A stretch of 33,173 bases of DNA from Isohypsibius dastychi (Eukaryota > Tardigrada > Eutardigrada > Parachela > Isohypsibiidae), in contig JAQIWT010000125.1 in assembly GCA_034696485.1 (NCBI GenBank), positions 1-33,173 on the forward strand. Reading direction: 5' to 3'. The notes below the pieces were generated by a model. That model searched no databases. It had not been told where the DNA came from and was given only the letters and a program-made list of their open reading frames with translations. Positions 2,686 to 32,934 of the stretch are shown one piece after another. Position 1 is the first letter of the stretch. Every line of letters begins with the position of its first letter. Made by a program: the position numbers and the translations under genes.

Positions 2686-4837
2686 TATGCTTGCAACTCA
2701 TCGTTTGATACTCCGTCATCCCAATACAGTTCGCCCTTTGCATCGGATCCGTCAGTTTTTGGGCAGACCAGTAATGTGAAGTTGTTTCGCCGGCTGTGAA
2801 GATAACGCCTTCTTTAATGTAGTTAACACCCAGTTAGCTGACGAGGACAGATTTTCTCCACTGCCCTCCTGCGGCTGGCACATTGGCGCCTTAAACGTTT
2901 CTGGCAAGAAATTTTTTTTGGTCTCTCCAGGTCTAAGGTTTAAAAAAAATAATTCGGTCAAGGAATTCCTCAGTTTACCGCGTACTGATAACAGGGGAAG
3001 GTTTTTTAACCTGTTTATGTTTGACCCCGAACCAAAGGAAAGGTTTTCCAAAAGTTTTCGAATCGTTGTCGGGATAGGTCAGGATGTCGTTAAAGAAATG
3101 TAAGCCCTCCTGGCGCGGGGAGTGGGGGGGGGGACTGTTAGTAAGTGGTGAAATGATATTGAAAACGCAGCAGCAATGTTCCAACGCCGACAAAGCTCTT
3201 GAGAGTTATCATCGGAAGCGGAAGGATTTCGCCAGAACCTACAAATGTCGGCGGCAGCCTGGAAAACAAATGTGACGTCAAACCTTCCAGTTAGTAACTT
3301 CTAGAATGCAGCGCACATATGGATATCCCATGCCCGCGTATTCCAACATCCACATGAAGGAATACCGAAGATCTGAGCAGCTCGACATAATGTCACCAAG
3401 CCAGCGTCCGGCATACCGTTGTATTCCAGGAAACGAATTCCTAGTCATCACAACGGCCCTTTCATTCGAGATTGTTCGGAGATTTCTGGAAAATATGTTT
3501 TTAACACTGCGCTCAAGAGGTTAAGGCTAACGATCAGAAACAGTGAACCCTTTTACAAAATCTGTGAAATGTAAACGGTCACTGGTAAATTCGTCAAAAC
3601 GCCGAAATCAAGCCTCGGCCAAAATTTGGTGTGATTTATAATCAAACGTTTATCAAAACGAAATCAACTCACAGTGCGGTGGCTCGTGCGGCAGTGTAAC
3701 CATATATATTGTGCACGTCGTAGTGACGAAAAGTTCTGTCGGACGTAGCGTGCTCGGCGTCCATGCATATCGTCTCGCTGGAAAGCAGGGGCAGTCGGTG
3801 TTTTTCTTTGTCTGTTTTCTCCCATTCTCTTACTGCAGCTGTAACAAAAAAAATTTCTCCCCGCCGAAATTAGTTACCTTGTCGTTCGTACCTGGCTTGT
3901 AGGGAGGATTTTCCAGATAGCTATCAGGGTTGCACTGCAGAAAAAACTTCATGTGCTTCCCAAATCAGGGAATATCCTCATTATTCTGTGAACCCCCTGC
4001 GGGATGTAAAACACTTTTCTCCGGATCTTGAAGGTTGGTGTCAAACGCCTGTGGTTCCGTTCGAGGCATCCAAACGGACGACAACTTGATTTGTTTCTCG
4101 TTGAAAAAAGCCCTGAGCTTGTCACCCCACCATTTAGTAGTCTCTGGCCAAAAGAAGTCTGGGATCGCGGATCTATTAAGTGGCCACATCTAGCGCATAA
4201 ACCAATTGTCTTTCAGCACATATTTATATATGAATAGTCTAGCTTACCTTGGCCAAGAGGCCCCTGCAGTCTTGTAAAATACTTTGATTTTGCGTTGCAG
4301 TGGCCCAGATGCTTTGCTTTGGCGACCACTTGATGTAAACATATTTTTCGCGGCCGGAGTGAAAAAGTTGGAAAGCATCAGTCGTATGAGTGCTGTCGGC
4401 ATGGATCGCTGGCATCTGTGAAATCCCAGTTTTGTGATCTCGGAGCATTTTAAATATCAGGTTCTTACGAGAACACCGCCCACTCGAACTCCTTTGCCAG
4501 CGAGTTTCTTGATCACATCGGAAAAGTTGGCGTATGTCCTCTCGTTAAGCGTGAACATTTGTCCTTGGTCCATATCTTAACATGAAAAGAAAGCAGTAGT
4601 TTTGAATTTGCAAATCGCAGGTCGGACATCCAGTTTCGTTAGACGTACAGTCCATGTCGACGAAGACCATCTCGACGGGAATGCCTTGGCCCATGTTTTT
4701 CTCGACGACTTCTTCGATTTCGTTTGTCGACGTGAAGCCCCATCTCCCGATCTGGTACCCCAGAGCCCAGTACGGCGGAAGGAACGGTCTTCCAACCAAC
4801 TGTATTCATAAATGAACGATAGCTTAAAATGACGTTA

Positions 4838-11860: not shown

Positions 11861-12244
11861 TTGATGGGTTGTGCCATGGATAAGACTGGCGCATCAGCGG
11901 AACCGGCGCTAATGGCCGATACGATTGCGCAACTCTTCGCGGAGGCCACCGCGAGGAGTGGGGAACAGCTTGTCGAGATAACTGGTGTCACGAGCATGGG
12001 AACTGTGACATCAGAGGACGTAACCATGCTGAGTGGGGACGTCGAACTTTCTATAGTTTCAGAGGAGTGTCCGAACTATTTGAGACAGGGGGAGCAAGGA
12101 CTCTTCACGGAGGATGGGAGAGACACCCAGGTTGGTGGCGACAGGGAGCTCACTGGTCATCGTAACGAACAACCTGAAGTGCCAGCAGGCACGGTGCCAT
12201 CCGTGCATGGACCTGGTCGACGAGAGAATATGGAGAACAGTTGA
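11861..12244 (+). pseudogene. Possible Gag remnant of the gypsy element
   Basis: The frame has an acidic, Ala/Glu/Thr-rich N-terminal half and lies immediately before the protease frame, where Gag would be. No CCHC zinc knuckle is visible. It is much shorter than a full Gag (usually 300-500 aa), so most of Gag is deleted or scrambled. The assignment rests on position only; an ATG at 11861 and a second at 11864 are both possible starts. Confidence 0.3.
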
Positions 12245-13533
12245 GATCTCCATTGCCCAAAAGTCAGGGAGAATCAGGCGATTCGATGTGCAGGCCCAAT
12301 TTGTGGACCACATCGAAAAAAACTGCATTGGTGCGTCGAGGACTCCTGAATAAGGAAGAGCTACGACACGCCAAAAAGACAAAGTCGCTATTGGTTACAC
12401 TGCGGTGGAGGGAACCTGCGATTCCGGGAAAATCCGGTGCGGTCCGGTGGAGGTTTTCCGCAGATCGACTCATTTGCGTTAAACCAACTTCTGGATTGGT
12501 GCAGAATGTTGACATACAACTCCACACGGCTCACGTGCACTCTATTGAATTGATGGTCGACAAAAGGAAGGGACAGCTGGGGAAACTGCTGAGCCCACTC
12601 TTTCAGCTTGAGGAGCGAATGGCCAATGGATTCTTTGGACATCAGCAGCCTTTACTTGCTATGTTAGCATTATCGACGACGCTCAATGCGATGTCGCGGA
12701 GAATGAGTAAACAAAAAATGGACATTCAACGATCGAATTCTCCTTTGCCTAAAATGGGAGTCAAACTAGGAGGCCGGTCAGTGGTCGCTCTGATAGACAC
12801 TGGGGCTAGTCTATCGGTCGTTTCACATAGCTTTGTTTGGGGACTTGGAGTCGACCTCATCAGCTGCGCAGTGGGAGCCAAGATGGCGAACGGGGATCTG
12901 ATGGAAAGCCTGGGTCGCGTGGACCTGCAGCCAGAGATCCTCGGTGAAAAGGTCACGATGCCATTTTGCGTTTTCACGGACTTTGGCGGACTCGGGTACG
13001 ACGCCATCATTGGATGCAACGTGCTGAGCGACATGCAACTCCTAGTGGATGTCGGTCGTAACCGACTTATCAAGCTTCCAACATCAGAAACTGGAAAGGT
13101 CACTGATGGGGAACTGGCGATCATGTCGGAATTCAGTCAGGTAATTCGCAAGTTAATTGGTCGGTTGCAAATGGCGATGAGATACAAGGTTATGGTGCTC
13201 GAAACTACACACGAAACGGACACCACATTGTGGGAGTACTCCTGGGAGAAGACAGCCATTGACCAGTTCAATGTTGGTGATGCCGGCACGATAGCTGGCG
13301 TCGACGCGGTGCGACGGATACTTCATGATTATCAGGCACTTTTTCACACAGAGAACATTGAGATGGGAGGCGCTAAGGATGAACCATTCCGGATTGAACT
13401 CCAACCTGGGACAAGTCTAAAATTCCGACTACACTACCGGTACTCACCGGAGGAAATGGAATGGATCCAACAGAAGATTCAGTCAGTGTTGTCACTCGGA
13501 GTGATTAGAAAGGTTCGCATTTCTCGGAGCTAA
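12241..13533 (+). pseudogene. Gypsy Pol N-terminal part: retropepsin and start of reverse transcriptase
   Basis: The retropepsin active site reads IDTGAS (DTGAS at 12796-12810) and is followed by the second strand motif AIIGCNVL near 13001, giving a plausible one-domain aspartic protease. The frame goes on through a linker to the RT fingers (FRIELQPGT, then HYRYSPEEMEWIQQKI). It ends at TAA 13531-13533 within the conserved S-x-x-xSPIVLVKK-type RT motif; the same frame resumes at once with PIVLAKK, so the TAA is a nonsense change rather than the end of a gene. N-terminal 200 residues are basic and unrecognised. Confidence 0.8.
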
Positions 13534-13989
13534 CCGATCGTGTTGGCAAAGAAAGAGGGTGGAAAGGCCAGGAGACTCTGTAACGATTTCAGAGAGGTGA
13601 ACGAGGTCACCATCGGGGAACAGTTTCCACTACCCAATGTGGACGACTGTCTGAATGTCCTGGCCGAGAGTAAATTTTACACCACCTCGGACTGTCGAAG
13701 CGGTTATTGGCAGGTTCCTCTCGATGAGAAGACCAAACAAATAACGGCGTTCCAAGCGGGGAACGCGTTTCACGAGTACGAGGTTCCCCCGTTTGGATTG
13801 AAGAATGCACCATCTGCGTTCCAACGGATGATAACTACGGTGTTGGCAGGACTTCTCTGGGTTGATGTCATTGTCTACATCGACGACATCGTGAGAGGAG
13901 GAACTCCCGTGGAGCGTCAACTTGAATGCTTGCGTGAGGTGTTCAAAAGACTCGAAAGATTCGAGCTGTCGAACAGTTTCCAATCCTGA
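13534..13989 (+). pseudogene. Gypsy reverse transcriptase palm, with internal deletion
   Basis: Copies RNA into DNA in intact elements. It continues the preceding frame after the nonsense TAA. Palm motifs: RLCNDFREVNEVT, FPLPNVDDCL, FTTSDCRSGYWQ-like motif, PFGLKNAPSAFQRM and the catalytic YIDDI (13876-13887). After VFKRLERFELS the sequence jumps to the end of the thumb/connection (NLKAVVSFLGLCSHYWRFVKGF in another frame), so about 40 codons covering the NPKKC to FLGHxVS region are missing. The thumb piece is at about 13985-14095. Confidence 0.85.
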
Positions 13990-14097
13990 AAAACCTGAAA
14001 GCGGTGGTGAGCTTCCTTGGGTTGTGTTCTCACTACTGGAGGTTCGTCAAAGGGTTCGCTGCGAAAGCTAGCCCTTTTGCACAAACTTTCGAAAAGA

Positions 14098-14580
14098 CAC
14101 ATACCATTTGCATGGAATGACAAACAGGACGTCGCTTTCAACCAATTAAAGCGGGCCATAACTTTGGCGCCGGTATTGGTTCACTTCAACGCCTCGATTC
14201 CAGTGGAAATCCATCCGGATGCATCAAGCTACGCGATTGGTACAGTAGTCCTTTAGCGAGATTCACAGAACCGAAAGCGTGTTGTTGCTGACGCCAGTCG
14301 ACGCCTTGCTGATCCAAAAGCTAGGCACGTGACAACAGAACGAGAAAACTTCGCTATCGTCTAAACTTGTGAGAAGTTTCGACACTTCCTCCTTGGGCGA
14401 AAGGTCACCGTCTTCACGGACCATTACAGTCTGCGTTGGCTCATGAACATTCAGACACCTAACAGCCGACTCGTTCGATGGAGCCTAGGACTCCAGGAAT
14501 ATGACCTTTTGATCGTCCACAAGTCAGGGAAGACCCAGTTGGACGGTGATTGCCTATGTAACGACCTTCAATATTCCTGA
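14098..14580 (+). pseudogene. Gypsy RNase H domain
   Basis: Removes the RNA strand of the RNA-DNA hybrid in intact elements. It opens with PFAWNDKQDVAFNQLK, then the active-site region HPDASSYAIG, a TERE motif and FTDHYSLRWLM, followed by the conserved stretch ending in HKSGKTQLDGDCL. Two in-frame stops, TAG at 14254-14256 and TAA at 14362-14364, break it; the final TGA is 14578-14580. A frame change relative to the RT thumb lies near 14095. The domain is full length in outline. Confidence 0.85.
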
Positions 14581-14629
14581 ACAAAACAGCATCAAAAAGA
14601 ACATGGGGGAGCAGACCCGGATTTGAGAG

Positions 14630-15271
14630 ATGGGTGCGGAACATTTTAAAACCATTGCTGGACATTCTTCTCTACTTGCCGTGAAGTATTCCAAGCTGGA
14701 GGAATTGTACAAGACTTGCCAGCAAAATTTTCATACCTTGTCCGAACGAATCTCCGCCACGAACACCGATTTTAATCAGCGCTGCATCACCAATATTAAT
14801 CGCGGAATGGAGGAGGATTTACGTGGTATACGATCCGGATGAGTGCAGGACTTCACGAAACTTGAAAACGACTTACGGCAACGACAAATGGCTGAACTCC
14901 AGCAACAACGAACGGAGTTCTACAATAACTTCAGTTCGATAAAGAATGCCATTAGTAACGCGCTTCAGGTTCAGCCACGATCAAACGCAGGAATTTACGG
15001 AAATACCAGCGGGCAAGTGCAAAATCAAAAGTATTATCGTACCCCATTGCCAGTGCATAATGTGTACCCGAAGCAACATGTCCAGCAGCAACAAGTTATG
15101 GAACCAGCCCCAAACCCCAGCAAAATTCAAAACATTATCAATATGTTAATGAAGGGGGCCCCTGAGCAAGCTCCGCCGCCGAAAGTTCAGAATTATGGAT
15201 CTGATTACATGGAGGGAATTGGAAATGTGAGTGGGGGCCAGGCAGAGCCGCAGTACCCTTATCAGGGCTGA
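14630..15271 (+). pseudogene. Unrecognised ORF interrupting the gypsy pol gene (possible host retrocopy)
   Basis: One frame of about 213 codons is broken only by a TGA at 14840-14842. The N-terminal half is helical and charged (ERISATNTDFNQR, then LENDLRQRQMAELQQQRTE), predicted coiled coil; the C-terminal half is Gln/Pro/Gly-rich with YPKQHVQQQQVMEP and ends QPYPYQG-like. It is unlike any gypsy protein I know, lies between RNase H and integrase, and is followed by about 600 bp of AT-rich sequence that could be a 3' UTR. The lack of introns and the position suggest a reverse-transcribed host mRNA inserted in the element, or chimeric capture. I found no clear terminal poly-A or target duplication. 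Function unknown. Confidence 0.4.
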
Positions 15272-15900
15272 GGAAATGTTTTGATGTGAAATTTGGAAAT
15301 CCAGTGCTGTACATTGCTTATATTTGGAAATTTATGAGAATATTAATGGGATCATCATCATTTCATTACATTTATAATTCTTCGAGCCTGCCCTTTGAGG
15401 AATTTTAGTAAATTCAGACTATTCCTCAATTGTAATTTACCTCAGGAATGTGCTGCTCGAAACAATCGTCTGTGTTGTGGTTTCATCATATGTGGATTAT
15501 TGGATCACTGCAAAACTACAAAAAAAAAGGATGAGTGGATTTAGTCAAATAATTGCTTATCATTGTGTTTTTGTAATCATGTGTAGCGGAACATCTCTTA
15601 CTTGCATTCCATGATCAGAGTGTGTCTGATCAAGAGATCGATATTACTTCCTCATAACTCGGCATATTTAAGCCGAGATTTTCGCCTGCAATCATTTGCA
15701 TATTTGGGATTCATTGGATTCATGCGTATTGTGAAGTAGAACATGTGGTGCTTTACTTCCGGTCGTTTCCGTTTAACGGGTTAAGACTCGCATATCGAGC
15801 TAAGGCTATCCAAACTGACCTTTCGTAATTTGAGGAAACGACTTATTTTGAATACAACTCGAACCTTGTATTCTTGACATCTTTCAAGATTCATACCACC
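15272..15900. other. AT-rich non-coding stretch between the inserted ORF and integrase
   Basis: No conserved frame. It may be the 3' UTR of the inserted ORF. A short A9 tract lies at about 15519-15528 but not at a clear boundary. The first integrase-like codons appear at about 15976. Confidence 0.4.
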
Positions 15901-15975
15901 AGAGGAGGTGATGCTTCAGGTCCTTGACGTCGAACAACTAGTGGACGATCCTCTGAAGGCATATGATATGCGCGG

Positions 15976-17390
15976 AGCAGCTAAAGGATCGCTACGCTAC
16001 CGGAATCATGGCGGAGTTGGCAGCAGGGAAACGTGAAGTTCGTGATGTATACGGACTGGAAGAGGGAGCCCAGTACCGGATTTGGAAGTCACGAGGAGAA
16101 CGTCGTCTCCTGCTGGTGATTCCCCGTTGACTTCGACCAGAGGTGTAACGCCGCTGCCACGACGAAAAGCGTTGCGGTCATTTGGGATTCAAGAGAACGT
16201 GGAACCGCGTGGGCTCCCGCTTGTTCTGGCCAGGAGTTCTCGACTTCACCAAGAAGTACCTTGCTTCTTGTGTCGAGTGTCAACCGCGAAACGTGATGAC
16301 CAAACGTGCGGCTGGTCTACTCCAGTCGTTCTGTCCGAAACAACCTTGGGGAATCCTAGCTACGGATGTTATGGGACCCCAACCACGTTCAGTGAAAGGG
16401 AACAAGTTCATCATCACCGCGACGGATCTCTCTACGAAATTCTTCGTCGCAAAAGCTGTGCCGGCTCAGAACGCTGAGGCAGTTGCGAGATTTTCAGTTT
16501 TCGACGTGTTTCTGAGGTACTCCATACCCCTACGAATCCTGAGCGACCAGGGGACGCCGTTCGTTAATCAGCCCACGACCGGGTTGTATAAACTCTCCAA
16601 CGTGAAGCGTCTCACAACGTCAGGATACCACCCACAGACTTACGGGAGCTGTAAACGTTTCAACGGCACGTTGGCCGTCATGTTGTCCAAGTATGTCGAT
16701 AGGGAGCAGCGTCGCTGGGATGAGGCTCTTCCATAAATGGTCTCCGCCTTTAACTCAAGTTGTCACGACGCAACTGGTTTTTCTCCATTCGAAATGCTGT
16801 ATGGCCGAGAAGCCACACTTCCAATCGACATTGAAATGCCGACAATCAACGAACCGGTCGTCGCCGAGATGCATAAGAGGCTTGTAAACATCCATGCTGA
16901 GGCGTCTGCGAAGACTGAGATCCAGCAAAATATGATTTTTGCTCGCGATAATCATCCGGATGTCCAGTACAGTATTGGAGAATTCGTTCTTGTCTTCAAT
17001 CCCAGTGGAAAGCGGAGACGAGAAACGAAGCTTCTGAACTGCTGGTACGGGCCGAATCTAGTGGTCAGGAAGGCATCGCCAGTGAACCACGAAGTCGAGA
17101 CACAATTTAAACGTGAAGAGGCAACCTTCCCCGTTCACGTCAACAAGATACGACCCTTTCATGATCGAAACGAGCTCTTTGTGGACTTTGAGGATGAAAA
17201 GGGGAGGGCTGGATACCTACAGCCAGCATCAAGCGGCCCTTCACTGCGGACGAGACTGAGCAGATGTATGAGAGCGATGAGATGTACGGTGAGGACCACG
17301 TTGGTCCCACTCACAGCAGCGAGCAAGAATCGTAGGAGTCAGTCGAACTGGCTAGCGGTACCGAGGAGCAAGTTGATACAACGAGGGTAG
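15976..17390 (+). pseudogene. Gypsy integrase with H2C2 zinc finger and GPY/F module, inactivated
   Basis: Inserts element DNA into the genome when intact. The segment starts in a Gypsy-like pre-integrase region (KDRYATGIMAELAAGK), then a zinc-binding HHCC module (GHLGFKRTW with CVEC) and FWPGVLDFTKKYL. Catalytic core: first Asp in ATDVMGP, second in LSDQGTPF; the third acidic residue should be the Glu of a V-E-R-F-N motif but reads CKRFN, with Lys at 16653-16655. In-frame stops occur before the zinc finger (near 16125 and 16146) and at TAA 16734-16736, after which the same frame continues (FNSSCHDATGFSPFEMLYGR). The C-terminus has WYGPNLVVRKA, a GPY/F module, and HVNKIRPFHD. Clearly an integrase; not active as it stands. 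Confidence 0.88.
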
Positions 17391-17557
17391 ACCCAAGCGA
17401 GCGTGGGCACGATAGTGACGAGGGACTCCTAGTCCGCCGCTCTTCCCGAACAACCAAGGGACAAGCTTCGACTCGCCTGATTGAAGATGTCAGGAAAGAA
17501 GCATTCGGCGGACCCACGATCAAGTGGTCATCCGTCGGGCAAACCAACTTTCTATTA

Positions 17558-18959
17558 ATGTTTCTTGTCTACTTGCTCCATTTCATGATGACGTTGGCGA
17601 TTTCAGTTTCAATCTGCGACCGTAGCAAGCCACGCTATGTCGGTGTTTTGGATTTGTCGAGCTTGATGACCTGCAACGACACTGTTCGACGACTCACACC
17701 GTTGCCTATTCGGTACGACTTGTATCTGGAGAAAGGTCAGGGACGCAACTTCGTTGGTTACTCCTGCCGAGCTTGGGTGAAGATTAAGACCATTAGTGTA
17801 GGAGCTCTTCGGAACCCTGACACTATGTTTCTCGAGGCACACAAGTCGCTCTTTGCAGAGGACTGTTAGCATATGGTTCACGAACATCGGTGCGCAACAG
17901 AACTAGATGATGCGCTCAGAAAACGTGTGGACGTTCACGGGTGAACCCAAAGGGGAGTGGAATTGGTACAGCACGGCGGTGTACAAGACTCTCAAATGCG
18001 AATACGAGTCAGTGACTCTGGTACAAGAGTTTGACACATGCCCCGTACTCAATCACGTTAGTTTGAGTCTGGCAAGTTACCTACCTGAACATCTCCAGTG
18101 GATTATATACTCCCTCCGGGATCAAGAGAACCAGGTCGTAGACGCTGTATACGTGGTCAACTGTAAGCCGGACAGAGCTCGCGCACAGGAGCTCATGAGT
18201 CTGTCACGTTTTAGTGGAGTCTTGGCCGCGAGGGCCAATGCAATGAAAAACTGTCAAATTCTCAAAAGTTTTGAACGCAAAGCTGTCATTCGACCATTCG
18301 TTTCAAAAGAAGCCGACTTCACGGTTGACGTCACGAAGTGTGGAGCTCAACCTCAGTCTGCTGACTGGACGATTTCGAGAGATGGACAAACCGTACTGCC
18401 ATTTCAACCGTGTTTCTTGCAGTCGAGTATCGTCAACTTCAATGAGCGAACTTACATCGCTAAGGATAGCACTTGGTTAGAGAAAAACCCTACCAAGTTC
18501 TCGAACCACCACACGCTTCTTGGTCGTATCGACCAGTCGGTTGATAACTCTGGGACATTGCTGTCTGCTGCAATGGAAAAGGAGCATTCGTTTACTTACA
18601 GCCTGATGTCTTAGTTGGCTGGTACCTTGAAGGAGCATGGTGTGGAAAGTGTGGAAAGCATCGTACAAACGATATCGCGGACTGCGAAGAAATTGCCTGA
18701 TCTCTTTGCTTGGGTCAGTTACGTCAAAATGGTCATGTGGATTAGGGTTGCTGTTGTCGTCTCATTCGGAGTTGCTTACCTACTGTGGTTCTTTCGCGGT
18801 ACGCTCAGAATGTTCTGTAGTCGAGCGGTTCGACGCATTCGGAATCGACTTGAAAGGCAACAACCGAGAAATGTTCCGAACAGTTTTAATCGGTCACGAA
18901 TATACGCGGAGATCCCGAATGCACCGAAAACAGACGAGTCTGTTAACTTTTACCCATAA
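17558..18959 (+). pseudogene. Envelope glycoprotein of the gypsy element, class III-like (possibly chuvirus-derived), broken
   Basis: In intact form such proteins mediate cell entry by membrane fusion. Three blocks: 17558-17869 with a hydrophobic signal-like start, 17907-18614 as ectodomain, and 18615-18959 with a transmembrane helix (about 18729-18794) and a basic cytoplasmic tail. Stops at 17867-17869 and 18612-18614 and a frame change near 17900 interrupt it. Evenly spaced cysteines and aromatic phrases (GEPKGEWNWYS; KCGAQPQ; DGQTVLPFQPC; VNFNERTY) are shared in pattern with the envelope remnant at 25.2-26.4 kb. It lies between integrase and 3' LTR as in errantiviruses. The chuvirus assignment is from remembered pattern and is tentative; envelope role is well supported by place and topology. 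Confidence 0.65.
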
Positions 18960-19611: not shown

Positions 19612-20240
19612 TCAAAAGGACACGAATGAACGCACATCTTTCTGAGTGCGAAGTACAGGAAACCTAGAAATTGCAACAACTTTGTCTTTGTCGGAAAATA
19701 AACCCTTATTATCAATTATCGAGCCGAGAACCTTTCGGGAAAGACCTACAAAACGGCATTTGGTGCCTTTAATTGTAAAGTTGGATTTTCGAAAACGTTG
19801 GAAGATTAGGAGCAAATTCAAAAGTCCCTCGTCAATGTTGTGACCGCCTGACAGAATATCGTCAATGTAGCAGACAACATTCGCGAACATCAGGCCTTCA
19901 AATGTTTGGTTCAATTCGGTCTCAAAGACCGAACTAGCCCAATCCGAGCCAAAGAGAAGACAACGATACTGGACCAGTGGTCCACCGGCGTATGTTGCTA
20001 TCGCTGTTTTCTCTCGACTCTCCTCATCCAAAGGGAATTGTTGGGACGCGTTAAAAAGATCAATTGATATGAATCAGTTTTCTCCACCAAGGAATTCGAA
20101 TACCTGATCAAGGAGTGGGAGAGGACCCTTGTTGGTCTTTAAGATTCTGTTTAACGGAATGTAATTGCCACACAGTCTAGTGGCTCCGTTAGAGCGTTTA
20201 ACTACATTTATTGAGCACGCCCAATTTGATTTCGAGTCTT
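19612..20240 (-). pseudogene. Reverse transcriptase of the minus-strand gypsy element
   Basis: Frame from 20031 down to 19612 carries the catalytic YIDDI (YIDD codons at 19869-19858) and a thumb-side motif ending VRSFVSF, where it is cut off. Upstream, in the region 20240-20032, the fingers motifs are recognisable (CSINVVKRSNGATRLCGNYI and PLPLLDQVFEFLGG) with one stop near 20070 and a frame shift relative to the preceding segment. The substitution of usual RT phrases (LLFGSDWASSVFE in place of the MPFGLxNAPxxFQ motif) shows divergence. Confidence 0.8.
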
Positions 20241-20834
20241 TCAAGACTCCGGCTTTTTTAGCCTGCTGACCTCTACGTTGACTTGCTTCTGCTCAGACGG
20301 GGCAAGGCGATGAGGTTCAACCTGTACTGGTCGTGCATCGCTGGCATCGAAATGGATAAGGGTAATGTTGGCTACGCCATGAGGTACTACCTCTACACTG
20401 AAAAGATCTTTATATTCAATAAATAGGGCGTAGAGCTGATCTCGCTTACTTTTGTCTAGGTCTTTCCCTATCAAAAGAGAAGAGGGATCAAAATTGCTCT
20501 TAGATGATTGGCAATTTGTTTCGGGAAGACCAGTGAAGTTCTTTATCAAGTACGGAGAAAGAGCTGCATAATTGTTTTGATGTTGACGCTGCGTATGTTC
20601 GTTTGTGTCAAACAGGTTTGAGGCAACAAAGTAACGAAAATCGAATGGGCAAATGTGGAGCGAAATTTTCGGGCATTTTGGGAGATGGGTTATCCACTTA
20701 TTCTTGAAGAAGAAGAACACCGCAATTACATCTATATCCTGGCATGCTTGGGTTAATCGGAACATGCATGCAGGTGGCCTGATGAACAGTGGCTCCGTAG
20801 TCCGCGTTGAAAACTCCTCCACAATCGCAGACAA
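20241..20834 (-). pseudogene. Pre-RT polyprotein segment of the minus-strand gypsy element
   Basis: Contains the phrase LYALFIEYKDLFS and VEPHRLAPSEQKQVNVEV, matching the stretch before the RT fingers in gypsy Pol (a short loop DxFS, then PxRxxPxxxxxIxxEV). The N-terminal part has Cys pairs and a Phe-rich stretch that I cannot assign. Frame continues from the protease side with shifts. Confidence 0.65.
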
Positions 20835-21029
20835 TCTTCTCCTGTTCAGTCAACGGTGTCGGACTTGGTTTTACGGAAAAACCGTTCTGGGGAAGAAACG
20901 AAGTTCCGTCAGAAATAGCGAGAATGATTTTAGACAGGTTCATCGCCGCATGAGTGCGATGAGAACACAACTGTTGTCCGGTAAGAGTCAGCGGAGGAAA
21001 TACTGTCCCTAAAGTTGAGATGGGGTGTT

Positions 21030-21240
21030 CAGATACACTGGTTAGAAGAACTGATTCAGATCTGTTGATCTAAAATGAAGCCTTTGATTTGTCCGTCACA
21101 TGTGAGTTCACAATTGTTAAGTGTGAACCGCTGTCTACTGAACAGTTCACCGAAAATTGTTCCGTCAAAAGATCGGTTTCGTCGAGACTAGCCAGAAGAG
21201 CCACATGATCTTGGACAGACATTTCCGGCATATTTGACAT
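21030..21240 (-). pseudogene. Retropepsin fragment (VDSGSHLTIV) of the minus-strand element
   Basis: The minus-strand frame shows SVDSGSHLTIVNSHV, a DSG-type aspartic protease active-site loop and following strand, with a TAG stop soon after. Only the N-terminal part is evident. It sits directly after the Gag-like start, so the bulk of Gag is deleted. Confidence 0.6.
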
Positions 21241-24470: not shown

Positions 24471-24477
24471 GCAACAG

Positions 24478-24744
24478 TGTGAGGTTGTCCACTAGGGTCA
24501 ACGCTCACATACAAGGACTCGAGCACTGAGCCCGGCCTTGTGCGTGTTATTTCTATATTCATCCTGACTCGGATGAGTCTTGCCTGCAGCCACCATATAA
24601 AATGGGGCGCAGGAGTAAGAACGTTTCGAACATCTTTGAATAAACTTGCATCCCGACTGATTGTGCTGGATTGTATTGATCATTTGAGACGAACGGTACC
24701 GTATCATTGTACAAGGTGTTCCTGGGTCTTGTAGGAGACCCACA
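24478..24744 (+). repeat. 5' LTR with TATA box and poly-A signal
   Basis: 267 bp, TG...CA. A TATAAAA box at 24596-24602 and an AATAAA at 24639-24644 lie 40 bases apart, giving a plausible U3-R-U5 order with a short R. It differs from the 3' LTR only at three sites, near 24529, 24559 and 24724. Confidence 0.9.
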
Positions 24745-24745
24745 T

Positions 24746-24763
24746 TTGGTGCCGAAACACGGT
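24746..24763 (+). promoter_or_regulatory. Primer-binding-like site
   Basis: TTGGTGCCGAAACACGG begins one or two bases after the LTR. TGGTGCC is the complement of a tRNA 3' end GGCACCA, so it fits minus-strand priming by a host tRNA; I cannot name the tRNA. Confidence 0.65.
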
Positions 24764-24904
24764 TTGGAATCGTTGTTTACTGTAGTTATTTCTTTCAGAG
24801 AAACATTTCGCGCGATTGGAAAACTGCATAAAGAGACGAAAGATTTGGAAAATTCGAAACCGACAAAAAAAAGCAACAAACTAGGAACCTTTCCTCGGCC
24901 AAGG

Positions 24905-24915
24905 AAAAGGTAAGC
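24905..24915 (+). promoter_or_regulatory. Splice donor in the 5' leader
   Basis: GAAAAG followed by GTAAGC: exon would end at 24909. It is the best donor between the 5' LTR and the envelope and is where a common leader for spliced subgenomic RNAs would be cut in a retrovirus-like element. Confidence 0.55.
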
Positions 24916-25246
24916 CATCCAGTTCATTGCAAACTTTTCAGTGAAAACATCTTCACTCCTTCTTTCTACTTCGATCCCTTTTGCCTCATTTTCCTACCTT
25001 AGTTTTCGATAAACTGCTCTCCCACAGCTATTTCCAGGTTAATTAGTAAAGAACTTTCTGATTCACCTGCTTTAGACAAAGTCTATTGTTCTTTAAGGCG
25101 ACAGTGGCGCCATCTCTCGGATAGTTTGATTTCATGTTTGATTTATCTAGAAAGCATAGGAGCATAGGAGAACAACAGCTAACACAAGAGCGACTCGCAC
25201 CTCTACAACGACTTAAAGACCGCAATCAACAACAATCCGCACTCCA

Positions 25247-26415
25247 GTGGTAACTACTCCCGAAATTTCAGATCCAGATGAGGTCAGAGATCAATTTCTT
25301 AGCTCACATTTTCAATTTGATTCTGATACAGCAGTAGATTCTGAAAATATCATCGCGAATGATTTACATAATCTTGAATGCAAGCTCCGAAAATGGCAGA
25401 TCCCAATGATTTGGCTCCTTAGTAATTTAAGTCCAGTTAAAGCAGCTTCATTTTTAGGTTTACCTGAATGTTATGCTTTAAAGCACACAGGAGGACTTAT
25501 TTTTGCTAGCCAGTGTAAGCCAGTCATAGCAAATGTATCAGCTTAAAGAACTCATTGTGGATTTGAACCTTTCTTTGAAAACAAAACTGTTCTTCAAGAT
25601 GGAAAAACTATCAGACCTTTCATTCCTTGCTCAAGAAGTCTTTATGAATTCATTGCTTTTGATGGGATTCCCTATCAATGGGATAATGTCTCATCTGAAT
25701 GGATAGAAATTCCAGAGACAATAGAACTCCAGCATGATCATTAAGCTTCATTTTTCAGACTTCGGATTGACCGATCAGATCGAGAAGGCTTAGCTATTCA
25801 TGCATCGAATAAAAAACTCTTGATTTGTTTTCCCAGTTTTCAGAACTTATGGAAAACACAGGAGGTGAAACCTTATCTCAAGCTTTAATGAAAACTCGAG
25901 ATGAAACTTCAAACTGGTCAAATTACTTCTCTTTTCAATTCTGGTTTGATTATTGGCACTACTTGACGATTGCGCTAGTAATCATCATCACTTTGATCGT
26001 TCTTTTGATCTGCTGTAAATGTGGAATTTGTGGAAAAATTTGGAAGACTTGCTGCAGGAAGAAAAAGCCTGACAACTGTCAAGAAGCCATTGAGTTACAA
26101 ATTTTGGAATCACAAATGCTCTTAGCCCAACAAGCTGCTAATCCTCCACAACCAAAAGAAACATCTCCTCAAAAATCATCCAAATTTGTAACTAAAAGTA
26201 AGCAAGCCAGATCGAAATCAACTTCCGTTTCTCAAACGATAGTTCAGCAGAACCCACCTAAAACGAATTCTCTGTTGCAAAACTCCTCTGAAAAACAACC
26301 CATTAGAGTCCCCGTTTTGGAAGAATTGAACCGGTACTCTTTCACAACTCCGGCTCATGTACCAGAAAAAACAGCATTTTCAGATATCAGGAAACTGCTC
26401 AAACGTTCGAAATGA
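25247..26415 (+). pseudogene. Envelope glycoprotein remnant (C-terminal half), class III-like, with membrane anchor
   Basis: Fusion glycoproteins of this kind mediate entry when intact; this copy is broken. The frame from 25247 is stopped by TAA at 25544-25546, resumes in the same frame to a second TAA at 25742-25744, and shifts near 25815 to the frame 25825-26415. The first part holds HCGFEP and DGKTIRPFIPC, matching in pattern the gypsy envelope at 18.3 kb. The last part has a membrane-proximal region rich in Trp and Phe, a membrane helix (about 25960-26016, YLTIALVIIITLIVLLI), a Cys-rich juxtamembrane CCKCGICGKIWKTCC and a Lys/Ser/Gln-rich tail of about 120 residues. The N-terminal half is missing. 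Chuvirus-type origin is tentative. Confidence 0.65.
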
Positions 26416-26549
26416 CTACATGGCACTTTTTCGACATCTCGTAGCATTTTTAATTACTTTGAGCCAAAAATATCAAGATTTCATATATTCAGCATTTTAT
26501 TATTGCTTTTTTCACAAATTATTCATGCAGTAGAACCGGGTTTCGCTAG

Positions 26550-27125
26550 TTGGTCGAACTTCAAAAAGCGTTTGAATTAGTCCACAAAGAACCTCTAGCA
26601 GGACTTCGATTTTCCAACAGTTCAGCAGCAAATAACCTGGTTCTTAGTCTTGTCAAGAAGTTCTCTGTAAAATATGATATGCATTATACTCGTGCTGCAT
26701 GTGTGCGTGATTGTTTCAGCAAATTTACTATATCTCATAATATCTCGTTTCCATATTTAGAGCAGAATCAAGATTATCAAACTTTGCTTCAGTATGCTCA
26801 GCAAGGTGAAAGAGTTCGAAGAAGTTGGCCTATTTTGAACATAATGTACGGGAACAGTAACGACAAATTCCGCCATTTGAAAGCCTTTCATAGAACTCAC
26901 GGAGAATCAATTCTCGAAATAATTGCAATTTCTGATCATATTGCGAATTGGCTAACATTTTTGCATTACGAAGAACTCTGCATGTTTGCCAAATTTTTCA
27001 CTTCGAGAGATAAACATTCATTAGATGAGTGCATCACTTATTGGCTATTTCTCAATGCCGATACTTTTTCTCATTTTAGAAGAAGCATGCTCGACGATAT
27101 CATTAGCGAAATTGATGCCCCTTAG
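26550..27125 (+). CDS. Unrecognised ORF A of the LTR element (about 190 aa)
   Basis: An uninterrupted frame of 191 codons, between TAG at 26547-26549 and TAG at 27123-27125. A splice-acceptor-like sequence (TTTTTTCACAAATTATTCATGCAG, ending 26530) lies just before it; no ATG occurs at its start, the first being 26680 within the text KYDMHY. The protein is soluble, mixed charged/aromatic, mostly helical, with YEELCMFAKFF and a C-terminal acidic helix (MLDDIISEID). Not similar to any retroviral product I know. Being intact while the envelope is broken makes it notable. Could be an accessory or captured gene; function unknown. Confidence 0.45.
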   Translation: MVELQKAFELVHKEPLAGLRFSNSSAANNLVLSLVKKFSVKYDMHYTRAACVRDCFSKFTISHNISFPYLEQNQDYQTLLQYAQQGERVRRSWPILNIMYGNSNDKFRHLKAFHRTHGESILEIIAISDHIANWLTFLHYEELCMFAKFFTSRDKHSLDECITYWLFLNADTFSHFRRSMLDDIISEIDAP

Positions 27126-27189
27126 CATACGAAAAACCTAACATTTCATCCGTGCTAACACTTCGCTCATTACTAGTTTTTCGCAGAAA

Positions 27190-27951
27190 ATGAATCCTCG
27201 CATCATGCTCTTCGTCGCTTTTCTGGCAGTGGCTTCCGCAGTCACTATTCCGCCAGCAGTCATCCAGTAATTTCTTAAACATCGTCAGGAATTCACTCAC
27301 CTTGAAAGAGCTGGAATCCGCATCAAACGTCATGCCGAAATCCCTGAAAAACATGATTTTCATGCAAATACCGCTTCGTCACGTCCTTCCGGACTTTTTA
27401 ATCGAGAAGAAACTGAAATCCTTCAACGTCTCACTCCTCAAGTTTTTTTGGAGGCTGGAGAACGCTCCGGTGCATTAGTTGCACAGGGTTTGTACAAGAG
27501 GTTTTGTACTCAATTTACCTTCTCTCATCCCAGTTTAGTCGATCGTTGCACTCAATATTTCATTATTTTTCATTTTGAAGATATGGAAGCTTATATTCCG
27601 AAGTCAGATTCAACAACTCTATTCGATAACCTTCAAATAGAAAGTACTACGGATCTTTCTATCATACGTTCGAATCTCCATGCATCGAACTCGTCCGATC
27701 ATCCGGACATCACTGAATATTGATATCCTCACTGGAATCATTTCAGTCTCCAATCAGCTTATTTTCTTCTATGCAGAGTATCGAAAAAACCGTATGGTGC
27801 AAAAAATGCCTGTATTTGTGTTGATATTCCAATTTATCACTTGGATATTCTGAAATTGCCAGTACTGGATGGCCGTCCTTGTATTGACACAAAAATACCT
27901 AAAAAGAAATGTCGCATCTTAGTTTGCGTTTTTCTCAGTAGAAATGGTTAA
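27190..27951 (+). pseudogene. Secreted-protein ORF B of the LTR element, broken by two stops
   Basis: ATG at 27190, four bases behind an acceptor-like TTTTTCGCAG (ends 27186). A signal peptide (MNPRIMLFVAFLAVASA) opens it. TAA at 27268-27270 stops it after 26 codons, but the same frame then runs to TGA 27721-27723 and beyond to TAG 27949-27951. The region after the first stop has a dibasic IKR site, a pair of close cysteines around FCTQFTFSHPSLVDRC and a later Cys-rich stretch (KKCRILVC). The pattern suggests a secreted, disulfide-bonded protein. No family recognised; an envelope-subunit or host-derived secreted factor are both possible. Confidence 0.45.
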
Positions 27952-28058
27952 ATTTCATGCTGCCATTTTTTTTCTGTTTATTGAAAAATGCCCAAAAATA
28001 TTTATTTTGGTCAATTATTTATCTTCATCTATTTTATTAATCCATTATTTTGCTCCAG

Positions 28059-28658
28059 ATGGACCGCAGTTCATCTCCGGAATATCCTTTTCCCGTTAAG
28101 TCATCATCTCGTCGAAGTCAATCATCTCGTCGAAGTCAATCATCTCGTCGAAGTCAATCATCTCGTCGAAGTCAATCGTCTCGTCGAAGTCATTCTTCAT
28201 CACCCGCAACTTGGTCGTCTTCATCGGACTCATACCAGTGCAGTGGTCACTCCGAGTTTTCTTCACGAAACTCTTCGGAGTTTAGTAAACCGGAAACGGT
28301 GGTCTCGTTCAGAGCCACCCGTCGCAGTCGTCGTTTGCGCCACCCCCCATCCTACCTGCTATCCGCATTTAGTCTTCACTATTGGGAAAAGGTTTTCAAC
28401 TCCTTTTCCGCTCATCCGCGTGTTCATCGGATTCGGAAGATGGCTAAGTTAATCAAGCCATCATCCAGCATCAGCTGCTCCACCATTGCCTTGCTGCATC
28501 ATCTAGTTCCGCTCTTCCTTGATCCAGACTGCAAGCTTAAAAGCTGCGGTCTTTATCAAGTTATCCGGATTGCCCGAGAGTGGGCACATCATCATCGTAT
28601 CGTCGGACTTTCGGAAAGTTCACTCCGAAGTTACATCGAAACTATGTATCCATCTTAG
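28059..28658 (+). CDS. SR-repeat protein ORF C with histone-fold-like C-terminal region (about 199 aa)
   Basis: ATG at 28059 directly follows an acceptor-like TATTTTGCTCCAG (ends 28058); the frame is open to TAG 28656-28658. Residues 16-45 are five tandem SSRRSQ units, followed by a Ser-rich and then basic RRSRRLRHPP stretch. The last 75 residues (about 28434 on) align by eye with the histone H2B fold: KxxxLIKPSSSIS against the helix 1 end and loop 1, then helix 2 with ALLHHLV, and REWAHHH, LSESSLRSYIETMYP against helix 2 end, loop 2 and helix 3; about 11 extra residues (DPDCKLKSCG region) would interrupt helix 2. This could be a nucleic-acid or chromatin-binding accessory protein. ORF and SR repeats are certain; histone likeness is a hypothesis. 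Confidence 0.5.
   Translation: MDRSSSPEYPFPVKSSSRRSQSSRRSQSSRRSQSSRRSQSSRRSHSSSPATWSSSSDSYQCSGHSEFSSRNSSEFSKPETVVSFRATRRSRRLRHPPSYLLSAFSLHYWEKVFNSFSAHPRVHRIRKMAKLIKPSSSISCSTIALLHHLVPLFLDPDCKLKSCGLYQVIRIAREWAHHHRIVGLSESSLRSYIETMYPS
28104..28193 (+). repeat. Five 18-bp tandem units encoding SSRRSQ
   Basis: Units of TCATCTCGTCGAAGTCAA repeat five times with almost no change (the last has TCG and CAT), inside ORF C. Being a multiple of three they preserve the frame and suggest recent expansion. Confidence 0.95.
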
Positions 28659-28840
28659 TCACTTTCATTTTCATTAATCTTGCCTTATTGTTTTTGCTCA
28701 TAGTTCTTCTTGCCTTAAGCACTTTAGCCTTTGTGTGTTTTTCATAATATTTTGCTATCATTTTATTTGGTTTTTTCACATACGATAGGTTATGTGAGGT
28801 TGTCGCCGACGGGACCGGCTCTGGTCTTGTTGGTGGGTTA

Positions 28841-29107
28841 TGTGAGGTTGTCCACTAGGGTCAACGCTCACATACAAGGACTCGAGCACTAAGCCCGGCC
28901 TTGTGCGTGTTATTTCTATATTTATCCTGACTCGGATGAGTCTTGCCTGCAGCCACCATATAAAATGGGGCGCAGGAGTAAGAACGTTTCGAACATCTTT
29001 GAATAAACTTGCATCCCGACTGATTGTGCTGGATTGTATTGATCATTTGAGACGAACGGTACCGTATCATTGTACAAGGTGTTCCTAGGTCTTGTAGGAG
29101 ACCCACA
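28841..29107 (+). repeat. 3' LTR of the envelope-bearing LTR element
   Basis: 267 bp, matches 24478-24744 at all but three positions. It is followed by ACAG (29108-29111), the same four bases that precede the 5' LTR. A second copy of its first bases with two bases before it, GGTTATGTGAGGTTGTC, lies at 28788-28804, and no convincing polypurine tract precedes the LTR. Confidence 0.92.
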
Positions 29108-31330
29108 ACAGGAACAGTTACCTAAATTCTACAGTATTTCATGTAATGTTGTCCCAGGAGAACGGAAAAACTGTTCAGATCAACAGTCAGAATAAGTGTG
29201 TTTTTATGCTCTTTTTCCAACCAGTTGCCGTCATTTCACTTTCCATCCTCTTTCTTTCCTTCTCATCCTCTTTTGTCCATTCGACTGTCCATCCTTTCCA
29301 TCCATCATTTTTTTTGCACCATAGTCATTCGTTATATGGAAATCTATTCGAGTTTGATTTTGATTATTTGATTTTCCGCGCACTTGAACTAGAAATTCCT
29401 ACATAAATCTTATCGGGTTCCCTGTGACTCCGTGAGATCGTCTTTTGCGAACTGCTGCATCTAGGAAAAATGTGCGCGGTACTCGCGTTTTATCATACCG
29501 AAGGTTCTCCGGCGATCTCTAGCCTGCAGCATCAGCGGCCTCTCATTCCTCGACATTTCAGCAAGATTTTCACAGCATCAAAGAAATCCAGAACACAAAT
29601 AAACCGCGGAGGTTTTGTTAGCTGAGCCGATAATCTTCTTAGATCGAGATGGGTCGAGTTTCTCACTTGGTGATGATGTTACTGAATGGAGGACTGATTT
29701 GAGATCAAACCGCATTCTGGCGTTCCTTTGTCAAAGTACCGCACCCGCAAGTCGGTCGCAACTATGTCGCAATCTTGCGCCTATGGCGTCATGTCACGCA
29801 TTTACCACGCCTAGTCGAACTCAGACAAGGTTGTATGTCTAGAACCTGACTTACTTGTCTCAGCAAGATTTGCTCTCGTTTTCTTCCGTTTAATCTGCAG
29901 TAGTTCCAAGGTTTCTGATTCACATGACTTGAAAACATTATTTTCATTCAGATTTAAATTTTAATTCTCCGCGCAACACCAGTTTCACAAGTTACTCACC
30001 TATTCTGTTGGTTTTTCTTGTGAGATCTCTCACGTGATTGGATTTCATCCGATTTTGAAAGCAATTTTGCAACTGGATCGATCTCGTTCCTCAAGGCGAT
30101 TTTTCTTCTGATCCAATGTGCACCGTGCATTGAACTCGGTACCGAACAAAAACCGACATAATATGCGTTGGCTAAATTTCTCCGGTATAAAATCTTGGTT
30201 TCTGGCTTAGCGCAATCACTTTTGTAAGTTCATGCTTCAAACCGAACCTGACTATCTCACACTTCAGGTATTTTGGAATTTACACGATGATGATCTGATC
30301 CCAGGAATACTTCGCAAAAGGACGTTTGCGAAAGTAAATGATATATGACATATTTCAAAGTTCTGAAAAACATTTTTTTGTCCGACTGATTTTTGTACCT
30401 GACGCTTTTTCTTCTTTGAGCTGCTCCCAAGTGGGTTGTTCGATTGAGACAAAAGAGAAAAAAGGGTTTTCCAACGCAAGAGTTCTTTTCGTAACACGGT
30501 TGAAAGTTTTGGAAGACACTTTCTTGTCCGAGTGATCATTGGACCTGACGCATTTTCTACCTAGAACTGCTCCCAACCTAGTTTCTTTGATCGGAACAAG
30601 TGTGATACTGAGGATTAAAATCACCAGAATACTTTTCATGGTTGAAAATTCTGACAACAATTCCTTGTCCGACTGATATTTGTACTTTATTGTCACGCCG
30701 ATAATTCAAGAGTATTGGCCTCCGATCGTCGAAGGATGGATCGCTGACCCCGTTCAAAGTTAGAACGCCGATTCCCAAACCGTGATATATTTGGGTTGCG
30801 AGCTGTAAAATGGTGAGTATATCAGTTACCGTTATTTATAAATACTGAATTTGTTCCTTCATACTTATTTTCGAAATTTTCATTAAGAGATCCTGGCAAA
30901 CCCAGCTGCTACCATGTTCCGCTTTCACTTTGCCAAAGCATTTACCGTCGAACATGAATTGATGGACACCTTGAATCACGGTCGTAGATGTTGCAAATTC
31001 TGCCATTCATCACCGTCAGTTATAAACGCTTCTTCGAAGCGACTGGTCGAGATGATGAATCTGCATATCAACAGACGATGCAGAAAGGTAATTGTTTTGA
31101 TTTCAAATTCAATCTCGATGTGAGTGCATGCATTTGCTTTGTATTCAAATCGCAAATCGGTGCAGAAAGTGCGCAACCCGTTTATTTATCGTTGACTAGT
31201 TAATTTTCTTTTCCTCAGTATTTGAGTGCTAGATCTGTCGTGACTTCTGTTGTCGGTGTGCCGTTGAACTGCACGAGTTTAGTTGAGCACTATTGATATT
31301 TCATGTTATGATTGATTGACAGTTGTGTAG
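29108..31330. other. No gene recognised; tandem repeat at 30355-30680
   Basis: The open frames here are short and without recognisable domains. Part of it may be 5' sequence of the BIR-like locus that follows: a frame at 30914-31087 ends in a donor-like AGAAAG/GTAATTG and holds a cysteine pair CKFC, but I cannot link it to that gene. Confidence 0.35.
30355..30680. repeat. Degenerate tandem repeat, about 2.3 units of 140-147 bp
   Basis: Units begin near 30355, 30502 and 30642; each has CTTGTCCGA followed by TGAT, then (in the first two) GACCTGACGC-like and CTGCTCCCAA motifs. Similarity is partial and stops occur in every frame, so it is treated as non-coding. Confidence 0.6.
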
Positions 31331-31717: not shown

Positions 31718-32029
31718 GTACGTCTAGGAATTGATTTTTCTTGCGATATCCTGATGTGGAAACATATGCGAGCCGAACACAGAAACCTTGTACTGAGTGT
31801 TCTTAGTTTTTTCGCCACAGGGAATGGATTGATTATGGAGAATATTGCGGAGAACTTTCTTGGTGAAATCGAAGCACCCGAAGCTAGAGCTTTTTACTCG
31901 TTCCAGATCTATACAGAAAATATTCACCCAGAAATTCACTCGCTTGCCATTGACACGTATGCACAGTATGAGATGAAAAAACAGCTTGTTCTCCAAGCCG
32001 TGATTCGGAATCCTGCAGTCGAGTTTTAA
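31718..32029 (+). pseudogene. Ribonucleotide reductase small subunit (R2)-like exon, radical Tyr replaced
   Basis: R2 makes the diiron-tyrosyl radical that lets ribonucleotide reductase form dNTPs. The exon starts at an acceptor-like CGTCTAG and encodes about 100 residues covering helices around the metal site: IDFSCDILMW (first Asp ligand, conserved Trp), FFATGNGLIMENIAENF, then EARAFYSFQIYTENIHPE with the E-x2-H ligands. Where R2 has Tyr four residues after that His (ENIHxExY), this has His (ENIHPEIH). It ends at TAA 32027-32029 soon after the helix and lacks the second half, with the other Glu/Glu/His ligands. No 3' continuation found to the end of the window. Family call strong; truncated, so probably a pseudogene fragment. 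Confidence 0.75.
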
Positions 32030-32934
32030 ACCGACCGGGCATCAACATATCTTTGGGATTGTGAATTAAGTTTCCTGAAAGGCTTGTGGTTTTTGTCAGC
32101 GTAGAAATGTTGTTATTTTGTGTATCCTGTGCTATTTAATTCTGGTCCGGAAGCCGCAGTCTCGTACCTGGGTTGTTTTTTTCAAACAACCTTATCAGCC
32201 GTGATGAATCCCTGTATGTGTTGTTCGCGTGTGCCTTACATGGTGAAATGGATTTGAAACGTCAACCAAAAGGACAGTTCTGGATGCATGCAGAGTAGAG
32301 AGTATTCTGCTAAAGCTCGATCACGAGAGATGTCATCGGTATGGAAACCACAACAATGGATCATTGCATTAAATAAGTTTGTGACAATCTTTCTACTTCG
32401 TTTGGCTCAACTGCATACTCTCAAACACTAAACTCTTTATCTTTTGTTGAGAATAAATCTTAGTTAAACAAATGAAATTCTTTCGGACGCAAAGTTGCGG
32501 AATACAAGCTGTCAATAATTGGTCACGCAACAGAATTCTGTACTGATGCAACATTTCAATGATGTTATTCAAAAATAAACAAGAGCCGTGACTCGTTGAG
32601 TTGTCTTCACTAAACGGGTTACTACCTTCCAATGATTCATTGTATAAGTTGCATCCTGTAAAAAAATTATCCAGGGTGGGTCACTAAGATAGCGAGATGC
32701 TGCCACCTTGAGTAATTCACGGTGAACCTTGACTTGAAATTTCGGCATTGTTTGGGGTTTTGGATCCTCTCGGCAGCATAATACAAATGTGTCTGGAGTA
32801 ACATGAAGGTGAAAAATAATATCGGAATTGAGTAACCTGCGTTCATTATTCTCACAAAAGTGTAGATCACGACCGCTCGCTCTACCATAGGCAATACCAG
32901 AGTGGAGATGACTGTCAACGATAAAAAATTCCCC
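32030..32934. other. No gene recognised
   Basis: Minus-strand frames at 32393-32632 and 32667-32918 are hydrophobic or mixed and not recognisable. A second minus frame over 32690-32800 contains FQVKVHRELLKVAASRYL, which recalls BTB domains, but too little is present to accept. Confidence 0.3.

Follow-up and report, generated by a model that had tools for sequence, protein, structure and literature searches.

Genes located after env in a Ty3-like element family of the tardigrade Isohypsibius dastychi

The possession of several accessory genes, each with its own splice acceptor, is usually ascribed to the complex retroviruses of vertebrates. We have analyzed a stretch of 33,173 nucleotides from the tardigrade Isohypsibius dastychi (contig JAQIWT010000125.1 of assembly GCA_034696485.1, hereafter the window), in which a 4.6 kb long terminal repeat (LTR) element (24478-29107) carries three open reading frames (ORFs A, B and C) after its envelope gene, env. 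The locus raises the question of whether these ORFs are genes of the element or sequences trapped by a single copy, and whether they are expressed by splicing from one promoter. Relatives were sought in the whole genome (30.4 Mb in 1648 contigs, of which the window is C125). We interpret 24474-29111 as a defective copy, inserted fairly recently, of an env-bearing Ty3-like (Metaviridae) family, and the comparison of copies indicates that A and B are part of the element itself.

Recurrence of the genes after env

The most informative relative is a near-complete element of ~12.2 kb on the minus strand of C11, far diverged from the window copy. It contains two LTR-like pieces of 116 bp that are 93% alike (33188-33303 and 21088-21203), the first of which is followed by TTTTTGGTGCCGAA (TGGTGCCGAA). 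Between them lie, in this order, gag, reverse transcriptase (RT), integrase, env, A, B and a third gene, C'. The gag (31823-32398) is 39% identical to that of C319, the RT matches two distant RTs in a large protein database, the integrase matches Pfam rve (E 2.7e-9) and env is a 583-aa open piece, while A, B and C' are interrupted by stops; RVT_1 was also detected in C233. Gag followed by RT ahead of integrase is the Metaviridae order, which is present in C11 and has been lost from the window copy; the label Ty3-like was judged from this order together with the look of the RT. Because C11 carries gag, RT, integrase and env together with A and B between its LTR-like pieces, A and B are genes of the element. 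The sequence-only reading of the window had found no known retroelement product besides env; this is a consequence of the deletion in the window copy, as gag, RT and integrase are all present among relatives.

A and B recur beside env, and C recurs beside LTRs. The stretch following env was read at ten loci (the window, C86, C11 at 24.2 kb, C862, C27, C128, C298, C211, C1283 and C11 at 46.9 kb), and A and/or B follow env at the first seven of these. In C298, whose env is of a distant lineage, the ORF that comes next fits the B profile (P 2e-4, a score reached by 0 of 60 shuffles), and at C211 a single, weakly B-like ORF was found (hhalign P 5e-4, best among 26 ORFs). Relatives of A were found on C86 (73%), C11 (23%, E 4e-5) and C128 (24%, E 0.006). 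With the C11 protein as query, relatives of B were found on C319, C27, C862, the window (E 0.004), C774 (E 0.003) and C856 (E 0.4), and a further B piece on C475 was found by DNA comparison. Relatives of C are on C90 (75%, open), C688 (72%), C1608 (52%) and C193 (48%), and C319 has, downstream of its B, a counterpart of the C' of C11 (hhalign P 1e-8). As A, B and C are all present in other copies, their capture by this copy alone is refuted, and the view of the locus as an LTR retroelement whose env is followed by three additional ORFs is upheld, these being genes of the element family.

Genes under selection after env are a feature of complex retroviruses, and the genes found here show such selection. 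The ratio of nonsynonymous to synonymous divergence (dN/dS) between the window and C86 is 0.24 (NG86) or 0.31 (YN00) for A and 0.40 (NG86) or 0.33 (YN00) for B; for three pairs of C it is 0.25-0.28 (NG86) and 0.46-0.55 (YN00), and for env 0.08 (NG86, the sole method yielding a value). The window/C475 pair of B was saturated and gave no value. In every pair compared for A, C and env, divergence is greatest at the third codon position, with significance not reached in all (p of 6e-5, 0.085, 0.044, 0.13 and 0.07 for C, 0.014 for A, 1e-4 and 6e-7 for env). When B is read from the ATG at 27190 its third position is likewise the most divergent in three comparisons (0.250, 0.476 and 0.333); for B, the claim of selection relies on dN/dS.

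Structure of the window copy

The coordinates of the element are collected in Table 1. The LTR pair, the flanking ACAG and the primer site that had been proposed for this locus were all found, and it is a real LTR retroelement. Its LTRs are 98.9% alike, with 3 differences in 267 positions (24528, 24560 and 24724). The primer site presumably resembles the 3' end of tRNA-Phe; the exact tRNA-Phe-like pattern, a candidate for the primer tRNA, was absent in a genome search. The first bases of the LTR (GGTTATGTGAGGTTGTC) are repeated ~53 bases upstream of the 3' LTR (28788-28856), and the extra block occurs in C90 too.

The leader resembles those of the nearest copies, C90 and C319 (94%), as far as 25136; past this point these copies continue into pre-gag sequence, while the window jumps to the middle of env and is aligned to C86 from 25202. 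The window copy is defective, with gag-pol and 5' env deleted and A and B damaged. Given its closely similar LTRs and missing gag-pol, its mobilization was probably recent and dependent on proteins from elsewhere.

Table 1. Features of the element copy (positions in the window)
Feature	Position	Strand	Remarks
Target-site duplication ACAG, left copy	24474..24477	.	directly outside 5' LTR
5' LTR	24478..24744	+	267 bp; TATAAAA at 24596, AATAAA at 24639 (by eye)
Presumed leader exon	24625..24909	+	ends at donor 24909/24910; start assumed; 0 ATG in 285 nt
Primer binding site TGGTGCCGAAACACGG	24747..24762	+	starts two bases past 5' LTR
Internal-deletion junction	25137..25202	+	pre-gag ORFs, gag, pol, integrase, 5' env gone
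3' part of env	25202..26415	+	two TAA between 25277 and 25813; membrane segment and cytoplasmic tail in 25825-26415
Signal-peptide-like stretch ahead of A	26416..26549	+	other frame than A body; no ATG
ORF A body	26550..27125	+	
Three-base gap before B	27187..27189	+	from acceptor AG (ends 27186) to B start
ORF B	27190..27723	+	signal-peptide-like start; in-frame TAA 27268-27270; natural stop TGA 27721-27723 after ..TEY
Acceptor ahead of ORF C	28041..28058	+	CAG/ATGG
ORF C	28059..28658	+	199 aa; arginine/serine repeats, then conserved C-terminal part
3' LTR	28841..29107	+	267 bp
Target-site duplication ACAG, right copy	29108..29111	.	directly outside 3' LTR

The three ORFs lie where they had been predicted, with the caveats that B contains a TAA and that the signal-peptide-like stretch of A is out of frame and has no ATG. 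A, B and C are without matches in Pfam, and A has no relatives in a large protein database. The window env matches Pfam Baculo_F weakly (E 0.0098; 15 bits, under the cut-off of 24.1); the C11 env piece has neither a Pfam match nor relatives in the large protein database, and as a query it finds at least 71 env-related matches in the genome. A match of the env tail to C333, a cellular contig, was taken as chance. Comparison of A with B by hhalign (P 0.008, probability 5%) gives only a hint of paralogy. The single-sequence structure model of A is all helix and uninformative (pLDDT, a model confidence score, of 42), and that of C is poor (pLDDT 47). A histone fold of the H2B type, considered for C from its C-terminal pattern, was rejected, there being no Pfam hit and no PDB hit by sequence or profile. 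Within C, an 18-bp tandem repeat in five registered copies (28103-28198) encodes the arginine/serine (RS)-type repeats and differs in length in C90 and C688. The interval between B and C (27724-27936) can be aligned in C86, C90 and C688 at ~79-82% and has no long ORF.

Other Ty3-like remains are found in the window at 12241-18626 on the plus strand (29% identity to C11 in RT, 32% in integrase and 26-29% in env), and a gag/pol fragment of the C11 kind lies at 19630-21231 on the minus strand, with an RT that is 68% identical.

Leader, donor and acceptors

The absence of ATG from the leader contrasts with a mean of 4.8 in shuffled sequences, and only 0.15% of 2000 shuffles reach zero. The leader of C90 likewise has no ATG in 284 nt, that of C319 has none in the 210 nt present, and in C11 the first ATG lies 273 nt past the LTR end. 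The proposed leader donor is present in the window as a strong site, GGAAAAG/GTAAGC, and has the same sequence in C90 and C319, the copies nearest to it (three copies in all).

Four acceptors had been proposed to follow this donor; those before B (27186) and C (28058) stand, and the other two were ruled out as coding sequence. The site at 25845 is inside env and its AG is missing from C86 and C11, while the AG at 26530 falls within the codons H-A-V-E that end the signal-peptide-like stretch, a stretch conserved as protein in C86. When 24910-28840 is scanned in a simple way, 12 acceptor-like strings are obtained, none of which is one of the four proposed sites, and such strings alone therefore mean little.

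The site ahead of B is conserved. B starts could be placed in seven copies (the window, C86, C11, C862, C319, C27 and C298); the B pieces of C475, C90 and C688 have no placeable start and are outside this count, and the C pieces of C1608 and C193 similarly have no start. In all seven a YAG precedes the B ATG, at 3 nt in the window and 4 nt in the other six, with 6 to 11 pyrimidines among the preceding 12 bases. In the same stretches, 23 of 324 ATGs (7%) have a YAG 3-5 nt upstream. For three independent lineages this amounts to 0.07 cubed, or 4e-4, a generous figure since the starts were chosen with the pattern known. C starts with CAG/ATGG in the window and C90 (two of three copies), and a YAG stands 6 nt ahead of an ATG upstream of A in C11 and likewise in C27. 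By DNA comparison, B has a conserved acceptor of its own, and for C and A the conservation of such a site is partial. B and C are likely expressed by splicing, and the candidate partners of their acceptors are the leader exon, in cis, and a trans-spliced leader.

Proposed expression and related systems

We consider it fairly probable that the window holds a defective copy, moved in trans, of an env-bearing Ty3-like family whose 3' genes are expressed by splicing from one LTR promoter. Fuller members would have, in this order between two LTRs, the leader, the small pre-gag ORFs observed in C319, then gag, RT, integrase and env, and finally A, B and one more gene, which is C here and C' in C11 and C319. 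The single LTR promoter would yield a full-length RNA serving as genome and as template for Gag-Pol, and we infer that the 3' genes are translated from mRNAs joining the ATG-free leader, through its donor, to acceptors 0-6 nt ahead of their ATGs. A and B, with their signal-peptide-like starts, would enter the secretory route with Env and probably aid spread from cell to cell. The arginine/serine-rich C is probably nuclear and probably acts on the RNA of the element, in the manner of CERV in Cer1. Without a gag-pol of its own, the window copy would have depended on proteins supplied in trans.

Several observations weigh against this reading. The splicing is read from DNA alone. The ATG-free run of the window extends beyond the donor to 25134 and does not single it out, and the donor is missing from the more distant C193. 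C688 has no AG before C (CAA/ATGG), the ATG behind the A site of C27 runs into a stop at once, and no A acceptor could be placed in the window or C862. At two of the ten loci (C1283 and C11:45000-46950) neither A nor B follows env. In the codon-position analysis, spacer controls gave p of 0.79, 0.05 and 0.62, one of the three being near significance. Finally, neither BLAST nor hhalign relates C to C'. The third gene occupies the same slot in both lineages, yet by these comparisons it is a different gene in each. Our confidence is slightly lowered by this last point and by the unsettled acceptor of A.

The donor missing from C193 would be explained if a host spliced-leader RNA were joined to acceptors before A, B and C, cutting one long RNA into single mRNAs without any part for the leader donor. 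Acceptors 0-6 nt before the ATG are indeed typical of trans-spliced genes in nematodes, flatworms and others. Such trans-splicing seems unlikely to us, as a strong donor closes the ATG-free leader and the SL1 RNA family of C. elegans type was not detected in the assembly, in a search that scored 50 of 7334 candidates and that other spliced leaders would escape. It is improbable that internal promoters or a polycistronic RNA account for the expression of the extra ORFs, with the acceptor-like sites being chance T-rich sequence. The two proposed sites that proved to be coding and the dozen other acceptor-like strings would fit this explanation, but the B site is located in a spacer and is kept at seven of seven placed starts, across lineages only ~30% alike in protein. 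Least credible is the entrapment of host genes or other inserts between the LTRs of one non-autonomous copy, as in a large retrotransposon derivative. The window copy does have no gag-pol, and captured host sequence between LTRs is on record in the part of PMC6431247 consulted. The cargo is nevertheless not private to a non-autonomous copy, since A and B follow env in C11, where gag, RT and integrase are also present, and in C862, C27 and others; nor does any Pfam family fit A, B or C.

With splicing from a single LTR promoter as the preferred reading, a bolder one, which we hold to be slightly less probable than its opposite, is that a Metaviridae lineage turned into a complex retrovirus independently of Retroviridae. 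It would have pre-gag genes, secreted and perhaps duplicated A and B, a nuclear regulator (C or C'), one promoter and alternative splicing, and a KDM4-like JmjC gene that fills the same slot in a relative could lift heterochromatin silencing. That relative, on C1283 (8600-11517; 873-2669), is an env-bearing element with env inside an open frame of 2435 codons, and it likely carries the JmjC gene found after env, as observed on one contig only. The JmjC domain is matched in Pfam with E 3.9e-8, its nearest solved structures are those of KDM4D (E 1.3e-7), and an intron-like stretch splits the gene. After it stands AAGGGGAGGGA followed directly by TGTCACG, resembling a polypurine tract and LTR start. 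The ends of this contig have 65 identical bases in common.

Complex retroviruses such as lentiviruses and deltaretroviruses have several small genes around or after env, spliced from one leader donor. They are another family, and differ in that A-C match no Pfam family and that splicing is here deduced from genomic sequence. The env-bearing Metaviridae of insects (gypsy, errantiviruses) share with the present family a Ty3-like gag-pol followed by env between LTRs and a 4-bp target duplication. The env of gypsy comes from a spliced RNA; we know of no A-B-C block after env in gypsy or the errantiviruses, and the env described here fits Baculo_F only under the cut-off.

Extra genes in invertebrate LTR elements have been published, each source being cited here for the part consulted. 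Cer1 of Caenorhabditis, also Ty3-like, expresses a 3' gene, CERV, from a spliced mRNA with a TTTCAG-type acceptor, and CERV is needed for export of unspliced RNA (PMC10309623). As described there, Cer1 has a single such gene in the env position and no env, and CERV shares the N-terminal exons of Gag; by its description CERV may be the nearest precedent for a nuclear regulator like C. LTR elements of bdelloid rotifers have an extra ORF3 after pol, of env-like, GDSL or DEDDy type, expressed from spliced messages (PMC5408684); one extra ORF per element is described in that part, and no three-gene block after env. Elements of the MDG1 group have sORF1 and sORF2 before gag, one of them with a membrane segment and a basic stretch (PMC11952523), and C319 resembles them in its two small ORFs before gag. 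These (3649-4646) encode 108 aa, with a membrane segment and a basic stretch, and 73 aa; the 108-aa ORF is like sORF2 in outline, by eye, and its C90 copy is truncated by a frame change. An intron-like sequence of ~50 nt (CAG/GTAAGT ... TTTCAATAG) lies just ahead of the gag ATG of C319. In the part of that source consulted, MDG1 elements have no env, show no splicing and, in the fly elements described, carry nothing after pol.

The earlier suggestion that such elements form an undescribed class does not hold for extra ORFs in general, as these three reports attest; it may hold for the block env-A-B-C, which was not met in a literature search made without Repbase and most subscription papers. 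What is new is the accessory block at the 3' end of a Ty3-like lineage that bears env, a block which not every relative has. If Ty3-like elements of a host other than vertebrates keep such a conserved set of genes behind env, the same plan would have arisen separately. A and B with their signal-peptide-like starts, the RS-rich C and the JmjC gene of a relative are definite proteins with which cell-to-cell spread, export of unspliced RNA and resistance to silencing may be studied.

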